A DNA stretch of 64,000 bases from NCBI RefSeq assembly GCF_019550795.1, contig NZ_CP080545.1, positions 637,001 to 701,000 of the forward strand, read 5' to 3'. Below, in pieces: positions 8,813 to 22,607 of the stretch (the stretch's first letter is position 1; each line of letters opens with the position of its first letter). The translations under genes were made by a program, and so were the position numbers. This DNA is from Paenibacillus sp. sptzw28 (GTDB taxonomy: Bacteria; Bacillota; Bacilli; Paenibacillales; Paenibacillaceae). Below the pieces are notes generated by a model, which saw only the letters and a list, made by a program, of their open reading frames with translations, did no database searches and had not been told where the DNA came from.

Positions 8813-10747
8813 TTAATTCGCGATTGCCGGAACCGGAGGAAACGTCATTCCCTCACCCAGGTAATAACTCGTATGCGGCGGCTGATTGTAGGCTACGTTC
8901 TGCCAAGCTATACCGAGGCGGTATACCGGATCGTGCATCAGAGTAGGCAGACGGTATTGCGTTATGTCCGTCGTTGTATATATTCGCAGCGCCGTACTGT
9001 CCGCGGTCCGCCATACCGCTTCCTCCCGCCAGTCTCCGAGCAAATCGGCCTGAAGGTTCGGGGTGCCCTTCGTGTGATTGTTCGAGAGCGTCCCGTCCGC
9101 AATCAATAAAGGCACAGCCTGGTTGTTCATATAATCCCACTTTTCGATTTTGCCTACGCCGGTGACGGCTGCCGGGTCCCAAGTATGGTCGAGCAGCTCG
9201 CGCTGAAGATCACCGTCCCACCAGATTCCGAAATTGATGGAATTCGGCTGGACACCGCTAATCTTGACACCGGTCGCGCTGAATAGCCCATGTCCGCCGG
9301 AAGCCCATACTTCTTCGCCCGGAAAGCGGGGATCGATATCGGCAGACATGCCGCGTCCCGTATCTCTACCGGTGAACAGGCCCCAAATGGTTTCTCCGCT
9401 GTCTGCGTCGCGGAATTCGAGGCCATATGCAGCTGATCTTGATTCATGGACCTGGAAGACCTCCATCCCGGGTCTGTTCGGATCGAGATCCCCCAGATGC
9501 ATGGCATCGCCGTGTCCCAGTCCTGTTGTATACAAGCCCTGGCCGTTGTTGTCAATCGCACAGGCGCCGTATATGATCTCGTCCTTGCCGTCTCCGTCCA
9601 CGTCAGCCACACTCAGGTTATGGTTCCCTTGACCGGCGTATCCGGAGAATCCGGGTGTATTGGAGTCGAATGTCCATACTTCGGAGAGCTGACCCTCGCG
9701 CCAATTATACGCGGCGACAACCGTCCGAGTGTAGTACCCGCGGGCCATAATCAGGCTTGGGTGCTTTCCGTCCAAATAAGCGATGCCTGCCAGAAACCGG
9801 TCAACGCGGTTTCCGTAGCCGTCTCCCCAATCGGTGACCTTGCCGCGCGGAGGATTATAAGGAATGGAAACCAGTTCCTTTCCGGTCATGCCTTCGAACA
9901 GGGTCAAGAACTCAGGCCCTGACAGAACCCGGCCGGCTGAATTCCGGTAATCGGCATTCGCATCTCCGATCACTTTCCCGGTGCCATCAATGGTGCCGTC
10001 GGCCGTCTTGAAGGCAACCTCCGCTTTGCCGTCTCCGTCCAAATCATAGACCATGAATTGCGTATAATGTGCTCCGGCGCGAATATTCCGTCCCAGGTCG
10101 ATTCTCCACAGGAACGATCCGTCCATTTTATAAGCGTCGATATAGACCGGCCCGGTAAACCCGTCGTGGGCATTATCCTTGGCATTGGACGGATCCCACT
10201 TGACGACCAATTCGTATTTTCCATCTCCGTCCAGATCTCCGACGCTTGCGTCGTTCGCCCTGTATGTGTAAGTTAAACCGTCGGGAGTTACGCCGTCCGA
10301 AGGCTTCTGGAGAGGAACGTCGCGATAGGCTTGCCCCCATACGGAAGCCGGTTCCGATTGTTTGTGCTCCCTGCCGCCCCATACGGGTCCGACGGTATAG
10401 CTGGATGAGGTCGTCCCTTCCGCATCGAGGAAGTTTGTCGAGGCGGTAATAGCCGCCGTATTCAGCTTCACTCCGTCCCGGTATAAGTTGAAGGAAATTT
10501 GCTTGGGATCCGTGCCAAGCAGCCGCCAGCTTACAAATACGCCGTTGTCCGTTTTTACCGCTGTCAATCCGCGGTCCAAAAACTCCATCTGCCTTTTACC
10601 CTCAGTCGTGTCCAGTGTGATAGAGCTTGATTCTGCAATCGCTTTCATAGGAGCGCTGACCAGAATGAGCTGCAGCGATGCGAGCAGGCAGACTCCGGTT
10701 ACGACGGCCCTCCGCCGCCACGGCGTCTTATGACCTTTCTTCTTCAT
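8813..10747 (-). CDS. Secreted rhamnogalacturonan lyase, polysaccharide lyase family 11
   Basis: A 644-residue secreted enzyme. A positively charged start and hydrophobic stretch ending in an AIAES-type cleavage region form a signal peptide of about 40 residues. The mature part has the PL11 features: RQMEFLDRGL at the start, FVSWRLLGTD, repeated calcium-binding DLDGDGKxE blades (GDLDGDGKYELV, YDLDGDGKAEVAF, ADVDGDGKDEI) and ADLLGDWREEAVWR near the end. Relatives include Bacillus YesW (endo) and YesX (exo), which cleave the rhamnogalacturonan I backbone of pectin. AAGGAGG stands seven bases ahead of ATG 10747. It is divergent from a rhamnogalacturonan acetylesterase-type gene, with which it would cooperate outside the cell. 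Confidence 0.93.
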   Translation of the reverse strand: MKKKGHKTPWRRRAVVTGVCLLASLQLILVSAPMKAIAESSSITLDTTEGKRQMEFLDRGLTAVKTDNGVFVSWRLLGTDPKQISFNLYRDGVKLNTAAITASTNFLDAEGTTSSSYTVGPVWGGREHKQSEPASVWGQAYRDVPLQKPSDGVTPDGLTYTYRANDASVGDLDGDGKYELVVKWDPSNAKDNAHDGFTGPVYIDAYKMDGSFLWRIDLGRNIRAGAHYTQFMVYDLDGDGKAEVAFKTADGTIDGTGKVIGDANADYRNSAGRVLSGPEFLTLFEGMTGKELVSIPYNPPRGKVTDWGDGYGNRVDRFLAGIAYLDGKHPSLIMARGYYTRTVVAAYNWREGQLSEVWTFDSNTPGFSGYAGQGNHNLSVADVDGDGKDEIIYGACAIDNNGQGLYTTGLGHGDAMHLGDLDPNRPGMEVFQVHESRSAAYGLEFRDADSGETIWGLFTGRDTGRGMSADIDPRFPGEEVWASGGHGLFSATGVKISGVQPNSINFGIWWDGDLQRELLDHTWDPAAVTGVGKIEKWDYMNNQAVPLLIADGTLSNNHTKGTPNLQADLLGDWREEAVWRTADSTALRIYTTTDITQYRLPTLMHDPVYRLGIAWQNVAYNQPPHTSYYLGEGMTFPPVPAIAN

Positions 10748-11084
10748 CACTTATCCTCCTTAGGGGTACGTAATGCCACAATCTATGTGCGGCAAAACTA
10801 ACGTAAATTATGGAAGCCTTTTCGTAAATAGGAGATATTTTACCGGTTTGAATTTTTTTGCAGCCAACAAAGTGTTAAACGGACAAAAAAATACAAGCAC
10901 CGGGCTGCGGGGGGCTGGCTGGGGGCCGGAGAAGATCAGTCTTTGAATTAGCAGCTGCAAGAAGTTCTTATTGATGGAAAATCCGGCTTTGCCTAAACTG
11001 GTATTCAAGGATGAGGAGAAGGGGGCGACATTTTTTCTTCACTTGAGAGTAAGGCCAATATTACACGGGGAGGGGAATAATGGG
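10748..11084. other. Divergent intergenic region between PL11 and CE12 genes
   Basis: These 337 bases separate two divergent secreted pectin-degradation genes and should carry both promoters. A weak TTTACG/TACGTT pair with 17-bp spacing is visible on the minus strand toward the lyase. I see no convincing catabolite (cre) box and no other gene; a reading frame from 10971 only extends the esterase upstream without a ribosome site. Confidence 0.4.
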
Positions 11085-12831: not shown

Positions 12832-13941
12832 TCAGGTGTGCAGGCTGATCGAAAGATCCGGATACGCCTCGGCAAGCTCCTCGATGTGACTGCTGACGAC
12901 TGCAGAGTCGAATTCCGCGGTGAACAGCTCAGGATCCGGTCGGATGGTCACACTTGTTCCGGTTTCATTCGTAACGCCGACCGGCAGGAGTTCCGTTTGG
13001 GGAATACCATGCTTATAGCTCTGCAGATGGATCGTTCCCTCTCTTCGAACCTCCACATGAAGCTGAAGGGACAGCGCGTTTACAACGGCGATGCTTATTC
13101 CTTTCTCTCCGCCAGGAGCGGTGAAGGATGCCCCTCTTGTCGTAAGCTGTTCCAGATCCGTCATGACGGTCTGTACGACCGATTTGCCTGTTCCGGCAAG
13201 CAGTTTGGTCGGAATGCCCCGGCCGTTATCCGCAACGGTGACGGCTGCGTTATCGTGTATATATACATGTACATCATTGCAGTAGCCTGCCTTGTGCTCA
13301 AGGACCGAATTGTCAAGCACGGCCCACAGCAGAAGGTGGGAGTCGTATTTCCCCTGCGCGGTCCCCAAGTAGGCTCCGGCATTTCCCCGCACTTCCGTCA
13401 TATCGATATAATCGCTTGTATCGAGCAGATCGGATACGGCGGCCAGCAGAACAAGCATCGGAAGCGAGCGGTGCTGAGCGATTGAATATTTGCCGCCGCG
13501 TTCCTCCTGCTGCAGCAGGTCGGCGCCGACCAGCGCTTTAATATGGTGATACAGCTGACCTGTCGTTCCCATATTGAGCAGCTCTACCAGCTCGGCGCCT
13601 GTCTGCGGCTTCCCCAGCAATGCGCGCAAAATATCAACCCGCTGCTTGTGTCCGAGTGCCGCTAATATCTTCGCCGCTTTCTCTCCGTCCGTATCGATTA
13701 GCTGGCGGACATTCCGCTCCTGCGGCTCCCACCTGTAACGGCTGCTGTCATTCCTGAAATGTCCCGAATAGTAAATAGCGCCTGCGGCGGTCTCGCCTGC
13801 TTCGGCTTCTGTAACGACGGATTGTTCATACCTTGCGCTCTTGCGGACGAGCAGCCGGTTCAACTGTTTCTGCATGTCGTTCATTTGATGTTTCAACAGG
13901 TCAAGCTCAGCGGTTAAATCTCTGGCGTCTTCCAAGAACAT
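12832..13941 (-). CDS. ArsR-type winged-helix regulator fused to a GyrB-like ATPase (Bergerat) domain
   Basis: About 369 residues in four parts: an N-terminal coiled coil (10-35); an ArsR-like winged helix (about 86-155, ALGHKQRVDILRALL and TTGQLYHHIKAL); a connecting helix; and a domain closely following the GyrB N-terminal ATPase (about 200-370). The last shows DNSVLEHKAGYC, VADNGRGIP, PGGEKGISIAVVNALS and NETGTSVTIRPDPELF. The asparagine that holds Mg2+ (GyrB N46) and the aspartate that binds adenine (GyrB D73) are kept. The general base GyrB E42 is alanine here (WAVLDN instead of FEVVDN), which predicts nucleotide binding with little hydrolysis. I infer a nucleotide-responsive repressor. 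GAGGTG sits two bases before ATG 13941 but six before TTG 13935, the likelier start. Confidence 0.8.
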   Translation of the reverse strand: MFLEDARDLTAELDLLKHQMNDMQKQLNRLLVRKSARYEQSVVTEAEAGETAAGAIYYSGHFRNDSSRYRWEPQERNVRQLIDTDGEKAAKILAALGHKQRVDILRALLGKPQTGAELVELLNMGTTGQLYHHIKALVGADLLQQEERGGKYSIAQHRSLPMLVLLAAVSDLLDTSDYIDMTEVRGNAGAYLGTAQGKYDSHLLLWAVLDNSVLEHKAGYCNDVHVYIHDNAAVTVADNGRGIPTKLLAGTGKSVVQTVMTDLEQLTTRGASFTAPGGEKGISIAVVNALSLQLHVEVRREGTIHLQSYKHGIPQTELLPVGVTNETGTSVTIRPDPELFTAEFDSAVVSSHIEELAEAYPDLSISLHT

Positions 13942-13957
13942 CACCTCATATCATTAA

Positions 13958-13977
13958 AATTACGTAATTACGTAATT
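13958..13977. promoter_or_regulatory. 20-bp perfect palindrome, probable operator of the winged-helix/GyrB gene
   Basis: AATTACGTAATTACGTAATT is its own reverse complement and contains two overlapping TTACGTAA units. It sits 17 bases upstream of ATG 13941, in the promoter zone of the fusion gene, and is shared with the divergently transcribed kinase gene. ArsR-type proteins bind such dyads and often regulate themselves. Confidence 0.6.
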
Positions 13978-14163
13978 AAATAATACCATGAACTATGGAT
14001 AAGTAAAGCCTCTTTCGGTAAAATCAGGAAAAGGCATGAAATGAGGAGCGGTTTAGTATGAATGAACATTTGGCACGATATAGATGAAGGCTTATACCTT
14101 CTTTATTTTTGCCGGCGCGCGTTTTACAATGAGGTATCAATAACATGGAAGGGGCTGCAGCGC

Positions 14164-14829
14164 TTGACGATGGAACCGAGCAGTATCGAGCTTGCGGATT
14201 TGGTGGAGCGTACGCTGCTACCCGGACTGGAGCTTGAGAGCGTTCAGCCCGAAGAACCGGTGCTGGTGAAAGAGCTGCCGGGGAATTGGACCAAACTGGG
14301 TGCAGGCAATTATGCCGGCGTATTTACACATCCCAATTTGCATGACGAGGTTGTGAAGGTGTATGCGCCAGGCCGCCCCGGGTGGGAAAATGAACTGGAG
14401 GTATACAGAAAACTCGGAGAGCACCCCGCTTATTCAAGCTGCCGCCATGCAGGGCAGCGGGGAGACCTTCGCTATCTGATTCTTAAGAAGCTTCGCGGCA
14501 AGACGTTCTACCAATGTCTTGTCCAAGGCTTGACGATTCCGCAGCAGGTCATCGACGACATCGATGCCGCGCTTGACTACGCCCGCTCCAGAGGTCTTTA
14601 TCCGCATGACGTTCACGGCAAGAACGTCATGGTATCGGAAGGCAGGGGGCTTGTCGTCGACGTATCGGATTTCCTCAAATACGAGCCATGCAGTATGTGG
14701 GACGATTTGAAAAAAGCTTATTCCTATCTCTATTCGCCGCTTATGTCAAATAATCCGGTTCCCGTCCCGGAGTGGGTTTTGAACGGCGTGCGTAAAGGGT
14801 ACCGGTTATTCCGCTCCGCGCACTCATGA
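14164..14829 (+). CDS. Small eukaryotic-like protein kinase
   Basis: About 221 residues with a compact kinase fold. Visible are a glycine loop LGAGNYAGVF, the lysine strand DEVVKVY, the helix-C glutamate in WENELEVYRKL, the hinge LRYLILKKLRG, the catalytic loop YPHDVHGKNVMV (Asp and Asn kept) and VVDVSDF in place of DFG. Such minimal kinases occur in Bacilli (YrzF-like); their substrates are mostly unknown. GGAAGGGG (14147-14154) is nine bases ahead of TTG 14164 and 15 ahead of ATG 14170, so the TTG is preferred; the frame is open back to 14062. It is divergent from the winged-helix/GyrB gene and may share its operator. Confidence 0.75.
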   Translation: MTMEPSSIELADLVERTLLPGLELESVQPEEPVLVKELPGNWTKLGAGNYAGVFTHPNLHDEVVKVYAPGRPGWENELEVYRKLGEHPAYSSCRHAGQRGDLRYLILKKLRGKTFYQCLVQGLTIPQQVIDDIDAALDYARSRGLYPHDVHGKNVMVSEGRGLVVDVSDFLKYEPCSMWDDLKKAYSYLYSPLMSNNPVPVPEWVLNGVRKGYRLFRSAHS

Positions 14830-15480: not shown

Positions 15481-15610
15481 CAATGTTTGTTCCTCTCTGC
15501 ATTGAATTGGTGGTCTAATTCTATCATGATTACCGGTTTATGAAACGGGTTAATTAGGGGATAGGAGTCACTTCGCTAAGACCCTGATCATGATAAGAAG
15601 GAGGGCGCAG

Positions 15611-16897
15611 GTGGATTATCCCGTAAATATTCTGCTTGTCGATGATCACCCGGAGAATCTCACCGCAATAGAGGCGGTGCTCGCGGGAAACCCGTACCGC
15701 TTGGTTCGCGCCTATTCCGGCAAAGAAGCGCTGAGGTGTTTGCTGGAAGAAGAATACGCCGTGATCGTCATGGATGTACAGATGACGGAAATGGATGGAT
15801 TTGAAACGGCCCGCATGATAAAGACCCGTGAAAAGTCGAAGAACGTGCCGATTATTTTCTTATCCGGGGCTGACCACGATGAAGACCTTTTCAGCGGGTA
15901 TTCTCTTGGAGCCGTTGACTATATGAGAAGGCCGTTTATCCCCCAAGTACTTAAAACCAAAATAGAAGGCTATGTCAGTATATATGATGCGAATAAGGCT
16001 CTTCAATTGCAGAGCGAGCTCCTGCAGGAGAAGACGAGGCAGCTTGAGAAAGCCAATCGGGAATTGACGAAGGCGAAAGAGGCCGCTGAGATCGCTTCAC
16101 GTGTGAAATCGGAGTTTTTGGCGATGATGAGCCATGAGATCCGCACTCCTTTGAACGGAATTATCGGCATGTCGGATTTGCTTATGACCCTCAAGCTTCC
16201 GGAAGAGCATAGCCAAATGGTCGAGATCATCCACTCCAGCGGCAATGCGCTGCTGACAGTGATAAACCATATATTGGACTTTTCCAAGATCGAGTCGGGA
16301 AAGCAGCAATTGGAGGAGGAGCCATTCTCGCTTAAGCTGTGTCTCGATGAAACGTTTGATTTATTTATGGCAAAGTCAAGAGAAAGTAATCTCGAAATGA
16401 CAGTGCATATGGACCCATCCATCCCCCCGGTCATCATCGGCGATATAACCTGTCTCCGTCAGGTGCTGAACAATTTGGTCGGCAATGCCGTGAAATTCAC
16501 GCATGTAGGCGGCGTCTCCATCACAGTGAACAAGCTTGGCGCGCATGCCGATACGATGGAGATCGAATTCGTCATTAAAGATACGGGGATCGGCATTCCC
16601 CGCGATAAAATGATGCAGTTGTTTGAACCCTTCTCCCAACTGGACGCATCCACGAACCGGAATTTCGGCGGGACAGGTCTAGGACTTTCCATTTGCAAAT
16701 CACTGGTTGAGCTTATGGGCGGAACCATTCGGGCACAACCGACCGAGGAGCCCGGAGCTACGTTTATTTTTACGGTTAAAGTAAAAACGTATTCCGCGAG
16801 AAGAACGATTAACGGAATGGAACGAATTATTCAAACGAAGCAGCGATCGGAACATAGTCTTCCTAATCGGGTATATGGAGAGGATATCAATGGCTAA
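15611..16897 (+). CDS. Cytosolic REC-histidine kinase (response regulator receiver fused to HisKA/HATPase)
   Basis: A 428-residue soluble protein: receiver domain (about 4-120, acceptor D55 in VIVMDVQM), a coiled coil (about 130-165), HisKA with H175 in [10 protein letters not shown], and HATPase_c (N box [11 protein letters not shown]1 DTGIGIP, G2 GGTGLGLSI). There is no input domain or membrane segment. GTG 15611 is chosen because AAGGAGG lies six bases upstream; an ATG at 15590 would overlap that site. Its stop overlaps the ATG of the giant HAMP kinase by eight bases, so the two are translationally coupled. I infer that the receiver takes phosphate from, or is read by, the partner kinase. 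Confidence 0.88.
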
Positions 16898-19800
16898 TCA
16901 GGAACTTAAACAAGAAGCGGATAATGAACAGATAGACACCGGTTTACTATTGAACGCATTAATGGCTTTGAAGAAAGGGAATTTCTCGTACCGATTGCCT
17001 TATGACTATTCGGGGAAAGCCGGCAAAGTGGTGGATACCTTTAATGAAATAATGGATATGCAGGAAAGTCTGGTCGAAGAAGTCGAGACGGTAGCCAAGG
17101 TCGTCGGCAAGGAAGGGAAGCTCTCCCGCCGGTTCGTGCATAAGAATGCGGGCGGCTCCTGGGAGACGATCGTGGACTCTCTCAATGGCCTCGTTATTGA
17201 CTTGATTCAACCTACAAGTGAGATGGTGCGAGTTATTAACGCTGTCGCCCAAGGCGATCTCTCTCAGAAGGTGGAGCTGGAGTTCGAAGGCAGAGCGCTG
17301 ACCGGCGAGTTTCAACGGACGGCCGCCAACATCAATATGATGGTGAATCAGCTCAGCATTTTTGCCTCGGAGGTAACTCGGGTAGCCAGAGAGGTAGGCA
17401 CCGACGGCAAGCTGGGAGGGCAGGCAAATGTCCGGGATGTTTCCGGCACGTGGAAGGATTTGACCGACAGCGTTAATAACATGGCCAGCAATTTGACCGA
17501 CCAGGTCCGCAATATCGCGGCCGTCACGACCGCAGTCGCCAATGGCGATCTGTCCAAGCAGATAACCGTCAACGCCAAGGGTGAAATACTTGAGCTTAAG
17601 AATACGATCAATACGATGGTCGATCAGCTTTCAACCTTCTCCTCCGAGGTTACGCGGGTTGCCCGCGAGGTCGGCACGGAAGGAAAGCTCGGGGGTCAGG
17701 CCGATGTTAAAGGCGTCTCCGGCACATGGAGGGATTTGACGGAGAGCGTTAATTATATGGCCTCGAATCTCACGAACCAGGTGCGCAACATCGCTGTGGT
17801 AACGACGGCGGTCGCCAACGGCGATCTGTCGAAGAAAATTACGGCGGACGTACAGGGCGAAATTCTCGAGCTGAAGAACACGATAAACACAATGGTTGAC
17901 CAGCTCTCCACCTTTGCCTCCGAGGTTACCCGGATGGCGCGCGAGGTCGGCACGGAGGGCATACTTGGCGGCCAGGCAGAGGTTAGCGGAGTTGCGGGAA
18001 CATGGCGCGATTTGACGGAAAGCGTGAACTACATGGCCAGCAACCTGACCAATCAGGTGAGGAATATTGCGGAAGTGACGACAGCGGTTGCCAAAGGGGA
18101 TCTGTCGAAGACGATTACCGTCGACGCCAAGGGCGAGATTCTGGAGCTGAAGAGCACGATTAATACGATGGTTGACCAGCTGAGTAATTTCGCATCCGAG
18201 GTAACGCGCGTCGCCCGCGAGGTATCCAATGAAGGGATCTTGGGCGGCCAAGCCGATGTGAAGGATGTATCCGGTACATGGAAAGATTTGACCGACAGCG
18301 TCAACTTTATGGCGAGCACGCTGACCGATCAGGTGCGGAACATCGCGGAGGTTACGACAGCCGTCGCCAAAGGCGATCTCTCCAAGCAGATAACCGTAAA
18401 CGCCAAAGGCGAAATTATGGAGCTCAAAAATACGATCAACACGATGGTGGACCAGCTGTCGACATTCTCCTCCGAGGTCACGCGGGTGGCGCGTGAGGTT
18501 GGTACACTCGGAATACTGGGCGGACAAGCCCAGGTAAGAGGCGTCGCCGGCACCTGGTATGATCTGACGGAAAGCGTTAACTATATGGCCTCCAACCTCA
18601 CGAACCAGGTACGGAACATCGCGGTTGTGACGACCGCAGTCGCCAACGGCGATCTGTCGAAGAAAATCACAGCTGATGTGCAGGGCGAAATACTGGAGCT
18701 GAAGAACACGATCAACACGATGGTCGATCAGCTGTCCACCTTCGCCTCCGAGGTAACGAGGGTGGCGCGCGAGGTCGGGACGGAAGGGAAGCTCGGCGGT
18801 CAGGCGCAGGTTAAAGGCGTCGGCGGCACGTGGAAGGATTTGACCGAAGGCGTTAACAGCATGGCGCGTAATCTGACCGATCAGGTGCGCAATATTGCAG
18901 ACGTCACTACAGCCGTAGCCAAAGGCGACCTGTCCAAAAAAATTACCGTGGACGTGAAGGGCGAAATTCTCGAGCTGAAGATTACGATGAATACAATGGT
19001 TGATCAGCTCAGCAATTTTGCCTCTGAGGTCACCCGCGTAGCGCGGGAGGTAGGTACGGAAGGCAAGCTCGGAGTACAAGCGGACGTGAAGGACGTTTCC
19101 GGAACGTGGAAAGACTTGACCGATACCGTAAACTATATGGCGAGCAATTTGACGATCCAGATGCGTAACATCGCGGGTGTTACGACGGCTGTAGCCAACG
19201 GCGACCTCTCCAAGAAGATTACCGTCGATGTGAAGGGCGAATTGTTCGAGCTGAAGAATACTATCAATACAATGGTGGACCAGCTCAACTCATTTGCCTC
19301 GGAGGTTACGAGGGTGGCGCGGGAGGTCGGGACCGACGGGAAGCTGGGCGGCCAGGCGCAGGTACGCGGGGTTGGCGGTATCTGGAAGGATCTGACCGAT
19401 AACGTAAATATCATGGCCACCAACCTGACGGATCAGGTGCGTGGAATCGCCAAGGTCGTGACCGCCGTCGCGAACGGGAATATGAAGCAGAAGCTTACGG
19501 TCGATGCCAAAGGCGAGATCGCCGAGCTTACGGATACAATCAACAACATGATCGATACGCTGGCGACATTCGCCGATCAGGTTACAACAGTGGCGCGGGA
19601 GGTCGGCGCCGAAGGCAAGCTGGGAGGTCAGGCCAGCGTACCGGGTGCAGCCGGAACCTGGCGCGACCTCACAGACAACGTGAATTACATGGCCAGTACG
19701 CTGACTACACAGGTGCGGGCCATAACCAACGTCGCGACCGCGGTAACCAAAGGCGATTTGTCCAGATCGATCGATGTCGCCGCAGCTGGAGAAGTCGCCA

Positions 19801-22607
19801 CGCTTAAAGACAATATCAATGAGATGATCCGCAATTTGAAGGAAACGACCCGTATCAATACGGAACAGGATTGGCTGAAGACCAATTTGGCCAAATTCTC
19901 CCGCTTGCTGCAGGGACAGAGAGACCTGAATGCAGTATGCCGCATGATTCTCTCCGAATTGGCGCCGCTTGTATCGATGCAGCACGGAGTATTCTATATT
20001 AATGAGCCTGTCAACGGAGAGCAGACGCTCGCGCTCTTTGCAAGCTACGCCTACCAGCATCGCAGGAATCTGTCCAATCAGTTCCGCGCCGGAGAGGGAC
20101 TTGTCGGACAATGCCTGATCGAGAAGCAGCGTATTCTGCTGACGAATGTCCCTGATGATTATGTCCTGATTTCATCCGGTCTCGGAGAGGCGGCGCCGCT
20201 TAATATCGTTCTTATGCCGATTATTTTCGAAGATCAGGTGCTGGCAGTTCTTGAATTAGCTTCCTTCCGCATGTTCAGCGGGATTGATATCGCATTCCTG
20301 GATCAGCTGACCGAATCAATTGGTATCGTCATCAATACGATGCAGGCCAACCAGCGGACAGAGCAGCTTCTGATGCAGTCCCAGTCGCTTACCGAAGAGC
20401 TGCAGAAGCAGCAGAACGAACTGCAGAAGACAAATGAAGAGCTTGAGGACAAAGCGAAGCTGCTCGTCATCCAGAAAGCCGAGGTCGAGAGCAAGAACAA
20501 CGAGGTCGAGCTAGCTAAGCGTTTCCTTGAGGAGAAAGCCGAACAGCTCGCGCTAACATCCAGATATAAATCGGAGTTTCTGGCCAACATGTCCCATGAA
20601 CTGCGGACCCCGCTCAATTCCTTGCTGCTGCTCGCGGAACAGCTTGCCGAGAATGCGGACCGGAATTTATCCGGCCAGCAGGTCAAGTTCGCCCAAACGA
20701 TTCAGGAGTCGGGCGAGGATCTGCTTAATTTGATCAACGATATACTCGATCTTTCGAAAATCGAATCAGGTACGGTTACCCCGGATTTCAGCGAAGTTTC
20801 CATCGACGATTTGACCGGGGGGCTCGACCGAACATTCCGTCATATTGTGAAGAGCAAATCTCTCGAATTCCGGATTATGACGGAATCGAACGTGCCGGAT
20901 ACGATTGTGACGGACTCCAAGCGGCTTCAGCAAATATTGAAAAATCTGCTTTCCAATGCTTTCAAATTTACGGAGAAGGGACAGGTTATGCTTGTCATCC
21001 GCAAAGCGAATGAAGGCTGGAAGGACGATAATGAAACGTTAAACCGCGCAAAGTCGGTGCTTTGCTTCTCCGTTAGTGACACAGGGATCGGTATCCCGGA
21101 GGAGAAGCAGCAAATTATATTCGAAGCGTTCCAGCAGGCGGACGGCAGCACGAACCGGGAGTACGGCGGAACGGGTCTGGGTCTTGCGATTTCACGCGAG
21201 ATTGCCTCTATGCTGGGGGGAGAACTGACACTGTACAGCGTTGTAGGTATTGGAAGTACCTTTAACTTGTATCTTCCGCTGACTTCAGAGCCGCGGGAGC
21301 CGGAACCGAAGGCCAAGTTCGTGCCGGAAGTCATTGATGTGGCGCCGCCCAAACGTACGCGCAGCTATGCCCCGGATGAAGAGCTTGAAATATTCGACGA
21401 CCGGTATTCTATCGAGCCGGGGGACCGCGTGTTCCTCATTGTTGAAGACGATATGAAGTTCAATGAAATTCTGCTTGATTCGCTGCGGAAGCGGGGAATT
21501 AAAGCTGTCATTACGACGAAAGGCTCAAACGCGCTGGAGCTTGCGCTCAAATATCAGCCTTCGGCGATTACTCTGGATCTGCACCTCGCCGACATGGATG
21601 GCTGGATTGTCATCGAGCATTTGAAGAATAATATGGAGGTCCGCCATATTCCGGTTTGCGTTATTACAATTGAAGAAGATGAAATTCAATTGAGGCGCAA
21701 AGGCGTCTTCGATTACATCGGCAAGCCTGTGACGAAAGAAAAGCTGGAAGGCGCGCTTGACTCATTGGAGCAATTTGCCGCCAAGAACGTTCATCGCCTG
21801 CTGATTGCGGTCAATGATCAGGAGCTGCAGGAGGAATGGGTGCAAACGCTGGGAGGCAAGGATGTCCTCATCACCACTGTTGATACGGGCAGGAAAGCCG
21901 TTAACCAGCTCAAGAGCAATTCGTTTGACTGCGTGCTCGTGGGCAACGATTTGCCTGATATGAACCCGGGCAGATTTATCCGCGAAATTCAGAAAGCCGT
22001 GAGTAATAAATATATTCCGGTCGTAATGAACCAGAGCAGGAAGCCGGTGCCCGAGGAAGCAAGCGAGCTTCACGAGGTGATGAAAGCAGTCGTTCTGAAA
22101 GAAGCGGGCACACCTGTTCAAATACTTGACGAAACAGCCCTCTTCCTGCACCGTAAAACCGGGAATCTGTCAGAGGAAGCAAGAGAGAAGCTCATTAAGC
22201 TCCATCAATCGGACGAGATGATCCAGTACAGGAAGGTGCTTGTCGTCGATGACGATATTCGCAATATCTTCGCATTAACGACCATACTGGAACGTCACAA
22301 GATGAAGGTTATTCCCGCCGAGGACGGCCGGGACGCCATCGCCCAGCTTGAACGGATTCCGGACATCGATATAGTCCTGATGGATATTATGATGCCTGTG
22401 ATGGACGGCTATGAAACGACGCGGGCGATTCGCCGGAAGGATAAATTCAAAGACCTGCCGATCATCGCCCTGACCGCCAAAGCGATGAAGGGAGACCGTG
22501 AATTATGTCTCGAGGCTGGGGCGTCCGACTATATTACGAAGCCTGTCAACAGCGCGCATCTGCTTTCAAAGATTCGTGTATGGCTGGACCGTCATATCGT
22601 CGTATGA
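16890..22607 (+). CDS. Giant HAMP-array hybrid histidine kinase (HAMP x ~21, GAF, HisKA, HATPase, three REC)
   Basis: A 1905-residue protein without transmembrane segments. Residues 1-990 are HAMP modules arranged as ten about 92-residue pairs plus a final single module, with the recurring signature TAVAxGDLSKxI/[17 protein letters not shown] alternating with [16 protein letters not shown]/GTWxDLTxxVN. GAF follows (about 1005-1155), then a coiled coil, HisKA (H1236 in [10 protein letters not shown]) and HATPase_c ([17 protein letters not shown]). REC1 has D1563. REC2 has glycine where the acceptor should be and looks degenerate. REC3 has D1832 in LMDIMMP. The array resembles group III kinases such as fungal Nik1, which have fewer modules. 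GGAGAGGAT precedes ATG 16890. Confidence 0.9.
16940..19850 (+). repeat. Tandem 276-bp coding repeats (HAMP pairs)
   Basis: About ten direct repeats with a 92-codon period encode the HAMP pairs of the hybrid kinase. Units in the middle (about 17500-19400) are the most alike at the nucleotide level; the first and last are the most diverged. Such direct repeats can expand or contract by recombination. The regular codon pattern also produces a long spurious frame on the opposite strand. Confidence 0.85.

Follow-up and report, generated by a model that had tools for sequence, protein, structure and literature searches.

Domain organization of the fusion protein

A 64,000-nucleotide stretch of DNA from the soil bacterium Paenibacillus sp. 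sptzw28 (the window) carries on its minus strand a gene for a protein that joins an ArsR-type winged helix to the N-terminal 24-kDa GHKL domain of DNA gyrase subunit B (GyrB). The gene stands alone, with a convergent gene downstream and a divergent gene upstream, and a putative operator precedes it (Table 1). The reading frame is uninterrupted from 12832 to 13944 and holds 370 codons counted from a GTG, the codon from which all residue numbers of the fusion protein are counted. An earlier note on this DNA had given the gene as 12832..13941. Position 13941 is an ATG, codon 2 of the frame, which opens at the GTG at 13944. The TTG at 13935 (367 amino acids) is likely the real start because it is better spaced from the Shine-Dalgarno-like GAGGTG at 13947–13942.

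Pfam HTH_5 matches residues 100–144 at 23.0 bits (cut-off 22), and HTH_20 matches residues 97–144 at 26.7, slightly below its cut-off of 27. The fold of the DNA-binding module is taken from sequence profiles and a full-length predicted model, which places the winged-helix helices at residues 87–97, 100–111, 116–123, and 128–140. Positions G126–L131 and Y132–H134 are near-invariant in the family alignment. The winged helix is preceded by an N-terminal helix and a beta-hairpin. Residues R8, E13, and D15 of the N-terminal region are conserved within the fusion family and also among stand-alone relatives, G61 of the hairpin is found in 121/121 family rows, and G61 and W72 are found in 44/44 rows that include stand-alone relatives. 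The ArsR metalloregulator model NF033788 scores 30.7 bits against a cut-off of 55, and the single cysteine of the protein, C222, lies inside the GyrB domain; metal sites made of His/Asp are possible.

The carboxy-terminal half has a GyrB fold. Pfam HATPase_c matches residues 204–337 (E 3.5e-8, passing its cut-off), and the NCBIfam GyrB models match residues 183–368 with a best E of 6e-41 but a score of 140 bits where the cut-off is 740. The top matches among sequences of solved structures are GyrB proteins (E 1.5e-31), and Foldseek and VIA-align agree on the GHKL 24-kDa N-terminal fold. The structure comparison, effective over residues 173–370, shows that the chain stops at the position corresponding to GyrB residue 207, so that the transducer and TOPRIM domains are absent, and that the winged helix joins the domain at the place taken in GyrB by the dimer arm. 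The architecture and fold described in the earlier note are thus borne out by Pfam, NCBIfam, and the predicted model. A frameshift or an assembly join of two genes is excluded in practice because 184 distinct homologs have the same fusion, as do 31 loci from named genomes; of these loci, L063 matches residues 243–369 only.

The adenine pocket is kept and the catalytic parts are lost

The family alignment combined 155 proteins with 44 loci, 199 rows in all, to which five GyrB/ParE sequences of the same genus were added. Of the 199, 188 are distinct and 184 of these cover the GyrB domain; the counts below refer to these 184. Residue names such as E42, N46, and D73 follow Escherichia coli GyrB numbering. 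The earlier note had read alanine at the catalytic E42 position and a retained asparagine at N46, and A208 and N212 do align with these columns, where all five same-genus GyrB/ParE rows have E and N, respectively. Loss of E42 is a trait of the family as a whole, with glutamate present only in P0037 and P0057 (2/184).

The columns of D73, R76, G77, and E50 are unchanged in 184/184, and P79 (183/184), R136 (179/184), and T165 (173/184) are near-invariant. In the phosphate-loop region, G117 is kept in 171/184 and I/V118 is kept, G119 is glycine in 8/184, and H116 is replaced by lysine in 162/184. The H38 column has histidine in 53/184. We did not detect the GyrB-like lid motif in the family; a loose search gave partial matches in 2 rows. 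Column entropy in the family alignment is 0.49 bits for 13 adenine-pocket positions, which were picked from known GyrB contacts after inspection of the alignment and several of which are also structural, compared to 1.40 for the whole domain and 2.08 bits for 19 catalytic, phosphate, and lid positions. R76, R136, D73, N46, E50, I78, and P79 jointly have a mean entropy of 0.087. As a control, 23 GyrB sequences were compared to 19 fusion-family members, with one gyrB row (L097) excluded. The entropies for GyrB and the family, respectively, were 0.37 and 0.39 in the adenine pocket, 0.0 and 1.03 at phosphate/catalytic positions, 0.21 and 2.17 bits in the lid (265–276), and 0.72 and 1.21 over all positions. 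These data show that the pocket is as tightly constrained on its adenine side as in true GyrB, whereas the catalytic, phosphate-loop, and lid positions have drifted.

The residues argue against ATP hydrolysis. Because the HAGGK lid, H38, and the last phosphate-loop glycine (G119) are lost and the chain ends ahead of the transducer, which in GyrB carries K337/Q335, ATP with its gamma phosphate is not an obvious ligand. The same losses tell against the proposal in the earlier note that nucleotide drives a GyrB-style closure of the dimer, which is not supported in the form given there. A switch in which ATP closes the GHKL dimer and thereby sets DNA binding could draw on the retained N46, D73, G117, and I/V118, and the lysine in place of H116 could hold phosphate. 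We nevertheless regard it as very doubtful, and ATP-driven closure as the least likely form of the mechanism, because the lid, H38, G119, the transducer domain, and K337 are absent; the winged helix, moreover, occupies the attachment place of the dimer arm. The GyrB domain could instead be a pure dimerization or stability scaffold that binds nothing. Its eroded catalytic residues, lid, and phosphate loop fit such a role, as do stand-alone relatives that have the same operator and manage without the domain, but a mere scaffold would not be expected to hold D73, R76, and G77 without exception or to keep a pocket as constrained as that of GyrB while the rest of the domain drifts. We consider a scaffold unlikely.

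A conserved putative operator at the family's own promoter

The putative operator core TTACGTAATTACGTAA lies beside the −10 element. Within the window there are 2 operator matches at ≤3 mismatches compared to 0.08 expected from shuffles. The 200 bases upstream of each family gene were then scored at 43 loci, excluding the C-terminal fragment L063, which lacks an operator. Two of the loci, L011 and L061, are probably the same species counted twice because they have identical upstream sequence and the same gene matches. TTACGTAATTACGTAA occurs at ≤2 mismatches upstream of 40/43 family genes and of 1/860 shuffled upstreams. The best matches had 0 (5 loci), 1 (22), 2 (13), 3 (2), and 4 (1) mismatches; among the shuffled controls, 1 had 2 mismatches and 3 had 3. 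The upstream palindrome of the earlier note is therefore a conserved feature of the promoter, and its occurrence by chance was rejected on the shuffle controls of both the window and the 43 upstreams. No match at ≤2 mismatches was found elsewhere within the fetched flanks of the family loci. A plausible −35/−10 pair with 16–18-base spacing is present at 36/43 loci, with the −10 element placed −4 to 9 bases from the site, in a scan run without a shuffled control. A protein bound next to the −10 element would probably obstruct polymerase.

In the 6.1-Mb genome that contains the window, an extended 18-mer at ≤3 mismatches was found at the gene's own promoter only, and the reversed control gave 4 chance sites. 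A regulon elsewhere in this genome was rejected on this result; looser targets with a single half-site may lie elsewhere. Across 22 genomes of the genus, 12 of the 13 that bear the gene have a site at the fusion gene at ≤2 mismatches, and the 9 without the gene have no such site. Sites at ≤2 mismatches away from a family gene number one each in G003 and G017, and 3-mismatch sites are about as frequent as for the reversed control pattern. The divergent gene beside the operator (14062–14829, plus strand) has no Pfam match at E 0.01, and parts of it look kinase-like by eye.

Table 1. Features of the fusion gene and its promoter. Residue numbers count from the GTG at 13944; residue counts are among the 184 distinct sequences.
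Feature	Coordinates	Strand	Basis or remark
Winged helix-GyrB fusion coding sequence	12832..13944	minus	open frame; 370 codons from GTG 13944
GyrB N-terminal 24-kDa (GHKL) domain, residues 183–370	12835..13398	minus	NCBIfam, PDB sequences, Foldseek, VIA-align
ATP-lid stretch, residues 262–277, without HAGGK	13114..13161	minus	alignment
D239, position of adenine-binding GyrB D73	13228..13230	minus	D in 184/184
N212, GyrB N46 position	13309..13311	minus	N in 182/184
A208, GyrB catalytic Glu (E42) position	13321..13323	minus	A 152, S 23, P 4, T 3, E 2
Linker helices, residues 157–187, winged helix to GyrB domain	13384..13476	minus	predicted model
ArsR-type winged helix, residues 86–156, recognition helix GTTGQLYHH	13477..13689	minus	Pfam and predicted model
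Beta-hairpin segment, residues 54–78 (YSGxY...RWEPQE)	13711..13785	minus	model strands 56–64, 69–78
N-terminal helix, probable coiled coil, residues 10–39	13828..13917	minus	predicted model
Shine-Dalgarno-like GAGGTG	13942..13947	minus	sequence
Operator core TTACGTAATTACGTAA (putative)	13960..13975	.	overlapping weaker copy at 13968–13983
−10 element TATTAT	13980..13985	minus	consensus scan without shuffled control
−35 element TTTACT, spacer 16 bases	14002..14007	minus	consensus scan without shuffled control

Among near relatives the operator goes with the winged helix

When the winged-helix part was searched against 398 genomes of the phylum, it matched three close stand-alone relatives (L113–L115; E at most 1e-20) and four weak relatives. 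The close relatives are about 207–211 amino acids long and retain the N-terminal helix, the hairpin, and the winged helix without the GyrB domain. Their operators lie 38–44 bases ahead of the start with 1, 2, and 0 mismatches (0/1000 Markov controls each), and a relative on a Deinococcus plasmid (L111) has an operator with 2 mismatches (0/1000). L113–L115 thus carry the same site without a GyrB domain, so that among near relatives the operator and the winged helix go together, and the GyrB domain appears to be an added sensor. A C-terminal DUF2087 domain is present in 4 of 120 listed stand-alone members (P0233, P0245, P0247, and P0252; precomputed Pfam), and a Pfam run confirmed it at the C terminus of P0252. 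The winged-helix module thus accepts different C-terminal partners, since DUF2087 replaces the GyrB domain in some members.

Two plasmids place a stand-alone gene near an M23 peptidase gene. On the Kocuria plasmid (L110:4845-6187) the peptidase gene follows directly with overlapping start and stop codons, and on the Deinococcus plasmid (L111:4785-7853) hypothetical and transposase genes lie between the two. These are possibly regulator-peptidase pairs.

Family distribution and gene neighborhood

The protein search gave 413 matches at E 1e-3 or better. Among the best 120 of these, the relatives at 58–60% that bear names come from Paenibacillus and are annotated as 'ATP-binding protein', 'helix-turn-helix', or 'ArsR family'; the label 'DNA gyrase subunit B' is carried by many records from metagenomes. 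With the full protein as query, the fusion turned up in 13/22 genomes of the genus, the remaining matches being GyrB and ParE. With the winged-helix part alone as query, the fusion was found in 25/147 genomes of the taxonomic family (7/19 genera, one copy per genome) and in 2/151 genomes across the class, one of them the window's own. Thirty of the 31 loci in named genomes are from Paenibacillus and one is from Ammoniphilus. The Ammoniphilus copy nests inside the Paenibacillus copies in the tree, which suggests that it was acquired by transfer; in this tree the gyrB row L097 is in the wrong reading frame and sits on a very long branch. No match was found in phages and no relative in viral contigs. 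Five plasmid records have winged-helix relatives at <60% identity, and none of the four inspected has the fusion.

Neighbor clusters were built from 44 loci, the flanks of the 13 own-genus loci extending only about 1.5 kb. A YnfA/UPF0060 membrane protein gene lies 18–22 bases downstream of the fusion gene in 3/13 own-genus loci (L007, L011, and L012) and, by a Pfam run, in L061, and in these four the two genes are probably one operon. A methyltransferase gene lies 12–29 bases downstream in three other Paenibacillus loci. Because these genes trail so closely, the fusion gene appears to belong to small operons in places. Small-multidrug-resistance-like genes, named from sequence by eye, lie near the fusion gene in L004, L005, and L007.

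These neighbors bear on the idea that the pocket mimics a drug target and binds natural gyrase inhibitors (aminocoumarin, cyclothialidine, or kibdelomycin type) instead of nucleotide, with drug binding freeing the repressor; in addition, the protein may act as a sink for the drug. R136 of GyrB contacts coumarin and is not known to contact ATP, and it is among the strongly conserved pocket residues, along with the rest of the seven-residue set above. GyrB itself, however, conserves the same residues without drug selection, the transporter linkage is limited to the window's genus, several loci have an intervening TetR gene that may be the transporters' regulator, and the window's own genome lacks a second strong operator acting on a resistance gene. 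We rate this reading as rather improbable. Of similarly low probability is a broader version, in which the drug/nucleotide face of gyrase was copied, stripped of its ATPase, and joined to a DNA-binding module, so that a decoy of the drug target senses gyrase-directed natural products or an adenine ligand and becomes more abundant when that ligand is there.

Elsewhere in the window, a plus-strand gene at 16875–22607 encodes a 1910-residue hybrid histidine kinase with 9–10 HAMP stretches, GAF, HisKA, HATPase, and three receivers; it overlaps a REC-HisKA-HATPase gene (15590–16897) and resembles fungal Nik1-type kinases. A family 11 rhamnogalacturonan lyase is encoded on the minus strand at 8813–10750.

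Discussion

The reading we favor, with modest confidence for the whole chain and the ligand unnamed, is a self-regulated one-component regulator that uses a non-hydrolyzing GyrB pocket as its ligand sensor. An old module of N-terminal helix, beta-hairpin, and ArsR-type winged helix would bind TTACGTAATTACGTAA beside its own −10 element and repress its own transcription. The GyrB 24-kDa domain would have been added as the sensor in an ancestor of the Paenibacillus family, losing ATP hydrolysis and retaining the adenine-binding pocket. A ligand in this pocket would change how the protein is shaped or dimerized and thereby its grip on the operator. The steps differ in strength. Direct computation covers the fusion and its fold, the missing catalytic residues, the constraint on the pocket, the conservation of the operator, and the link of operator to winged helix. 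The case that the protein binds the operator is strong, and repression rather than activation is likely because of the position beside the −10 element. Conservation suggests that the pocket binds a ligand, and the behavior of other one-component regulators suggests that the ligand would change DNA binding. Autoregulation of the fusion gene is very probable, and a small molecule may be the signal.

Several observations weigh against this reading. A strong site at the own promoter only leaves the physiological purpose of the regulator unexplained, and no conserved partner was found: outside the family's own cluster, no neighbor cluster spans more than 8 loci. The operator core is a poor match at three family loci (3, 3, and 4 mismatches), and the exceptional gene-bearing genome, G003, has variant spacing such that the 18-mer missed its own promoter. 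Among stand-alone relatives, the best operator in Kocuria L110 has 4 mismatches (7/1000 controls), the operator was not found in the Streptomyces relatives L109 and L112, and the best matches anywhere in the loci of the weak relatives L116–L119 have 5, 5, 5, and 3 mismatches. The way the pocket positions were chosen counts here as well.

The fusion protein shares the N-terminal 24-kDa GHKL domain with GyrB but lacks its catalytic Glu, HAGGK lid, transducer, TOPRIM, and GyrA-binding parts and adds a winged helix. It shares the winged helix at residues 86–156 with ArsR/SmtB regulators but has no metal Cys pair and carries an extra N-terminal helix and hairpin and a large C-terminal sensor. The unnamed stand-alone family of Bacillota, Actinomycetota, and Deinococcota has the same helix, hairpin, and winged helix at 29–36% identity, and its nearest members share the operator; it differs in lacking the GyrB domain and in its length of about 150–230 amino acids. 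Regulators such as ROK repressors and BirA sense their ligands with an enzyme domain that is joined to a winged helix. The principle is the same, but their enzyme folds are different, and that of the fusion protein comes from a topoisomerase ATPase. We know of no one-component regulator with a gyrase ATP pocket. In CapK/CapS (PMC13373217), GHKL and HTH domains likewise serve transcriptional control, but CapK is an active HTH-STAS-GHKL kinase that acts on a separate repressor, whereas the fusion is one chain without STAS and with a GyrB-type GHKL domain. CdsR is an autoregulated ArsR protein of 95 amino acids (PMC11009283), and PMC5847659 deals with archaeal two-component systems. We found no description of a winged helix-GyrB fusion regulator in the open-access literature, a search with subscription journals and preprints largely outside its scope.

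One-component regulators with borrowed enzyme domains are already known, and the gyrase ATP pocket is the new element. Also new are the contrast between pocket and catalytic conservation, the conserved operator at the own promoter, and its sharing with stand-alone winged-helix relatives. The public label 'DNA gyrase subunit B' is misleading for members of this family. With an operator, a conserved pocket, and stand-alone relatives in hand, the regulator idea can be tested directly. If the pocket does bind gyrase inhibitors, the fusion protein would be a natural biosensor for that class of antibiotics.
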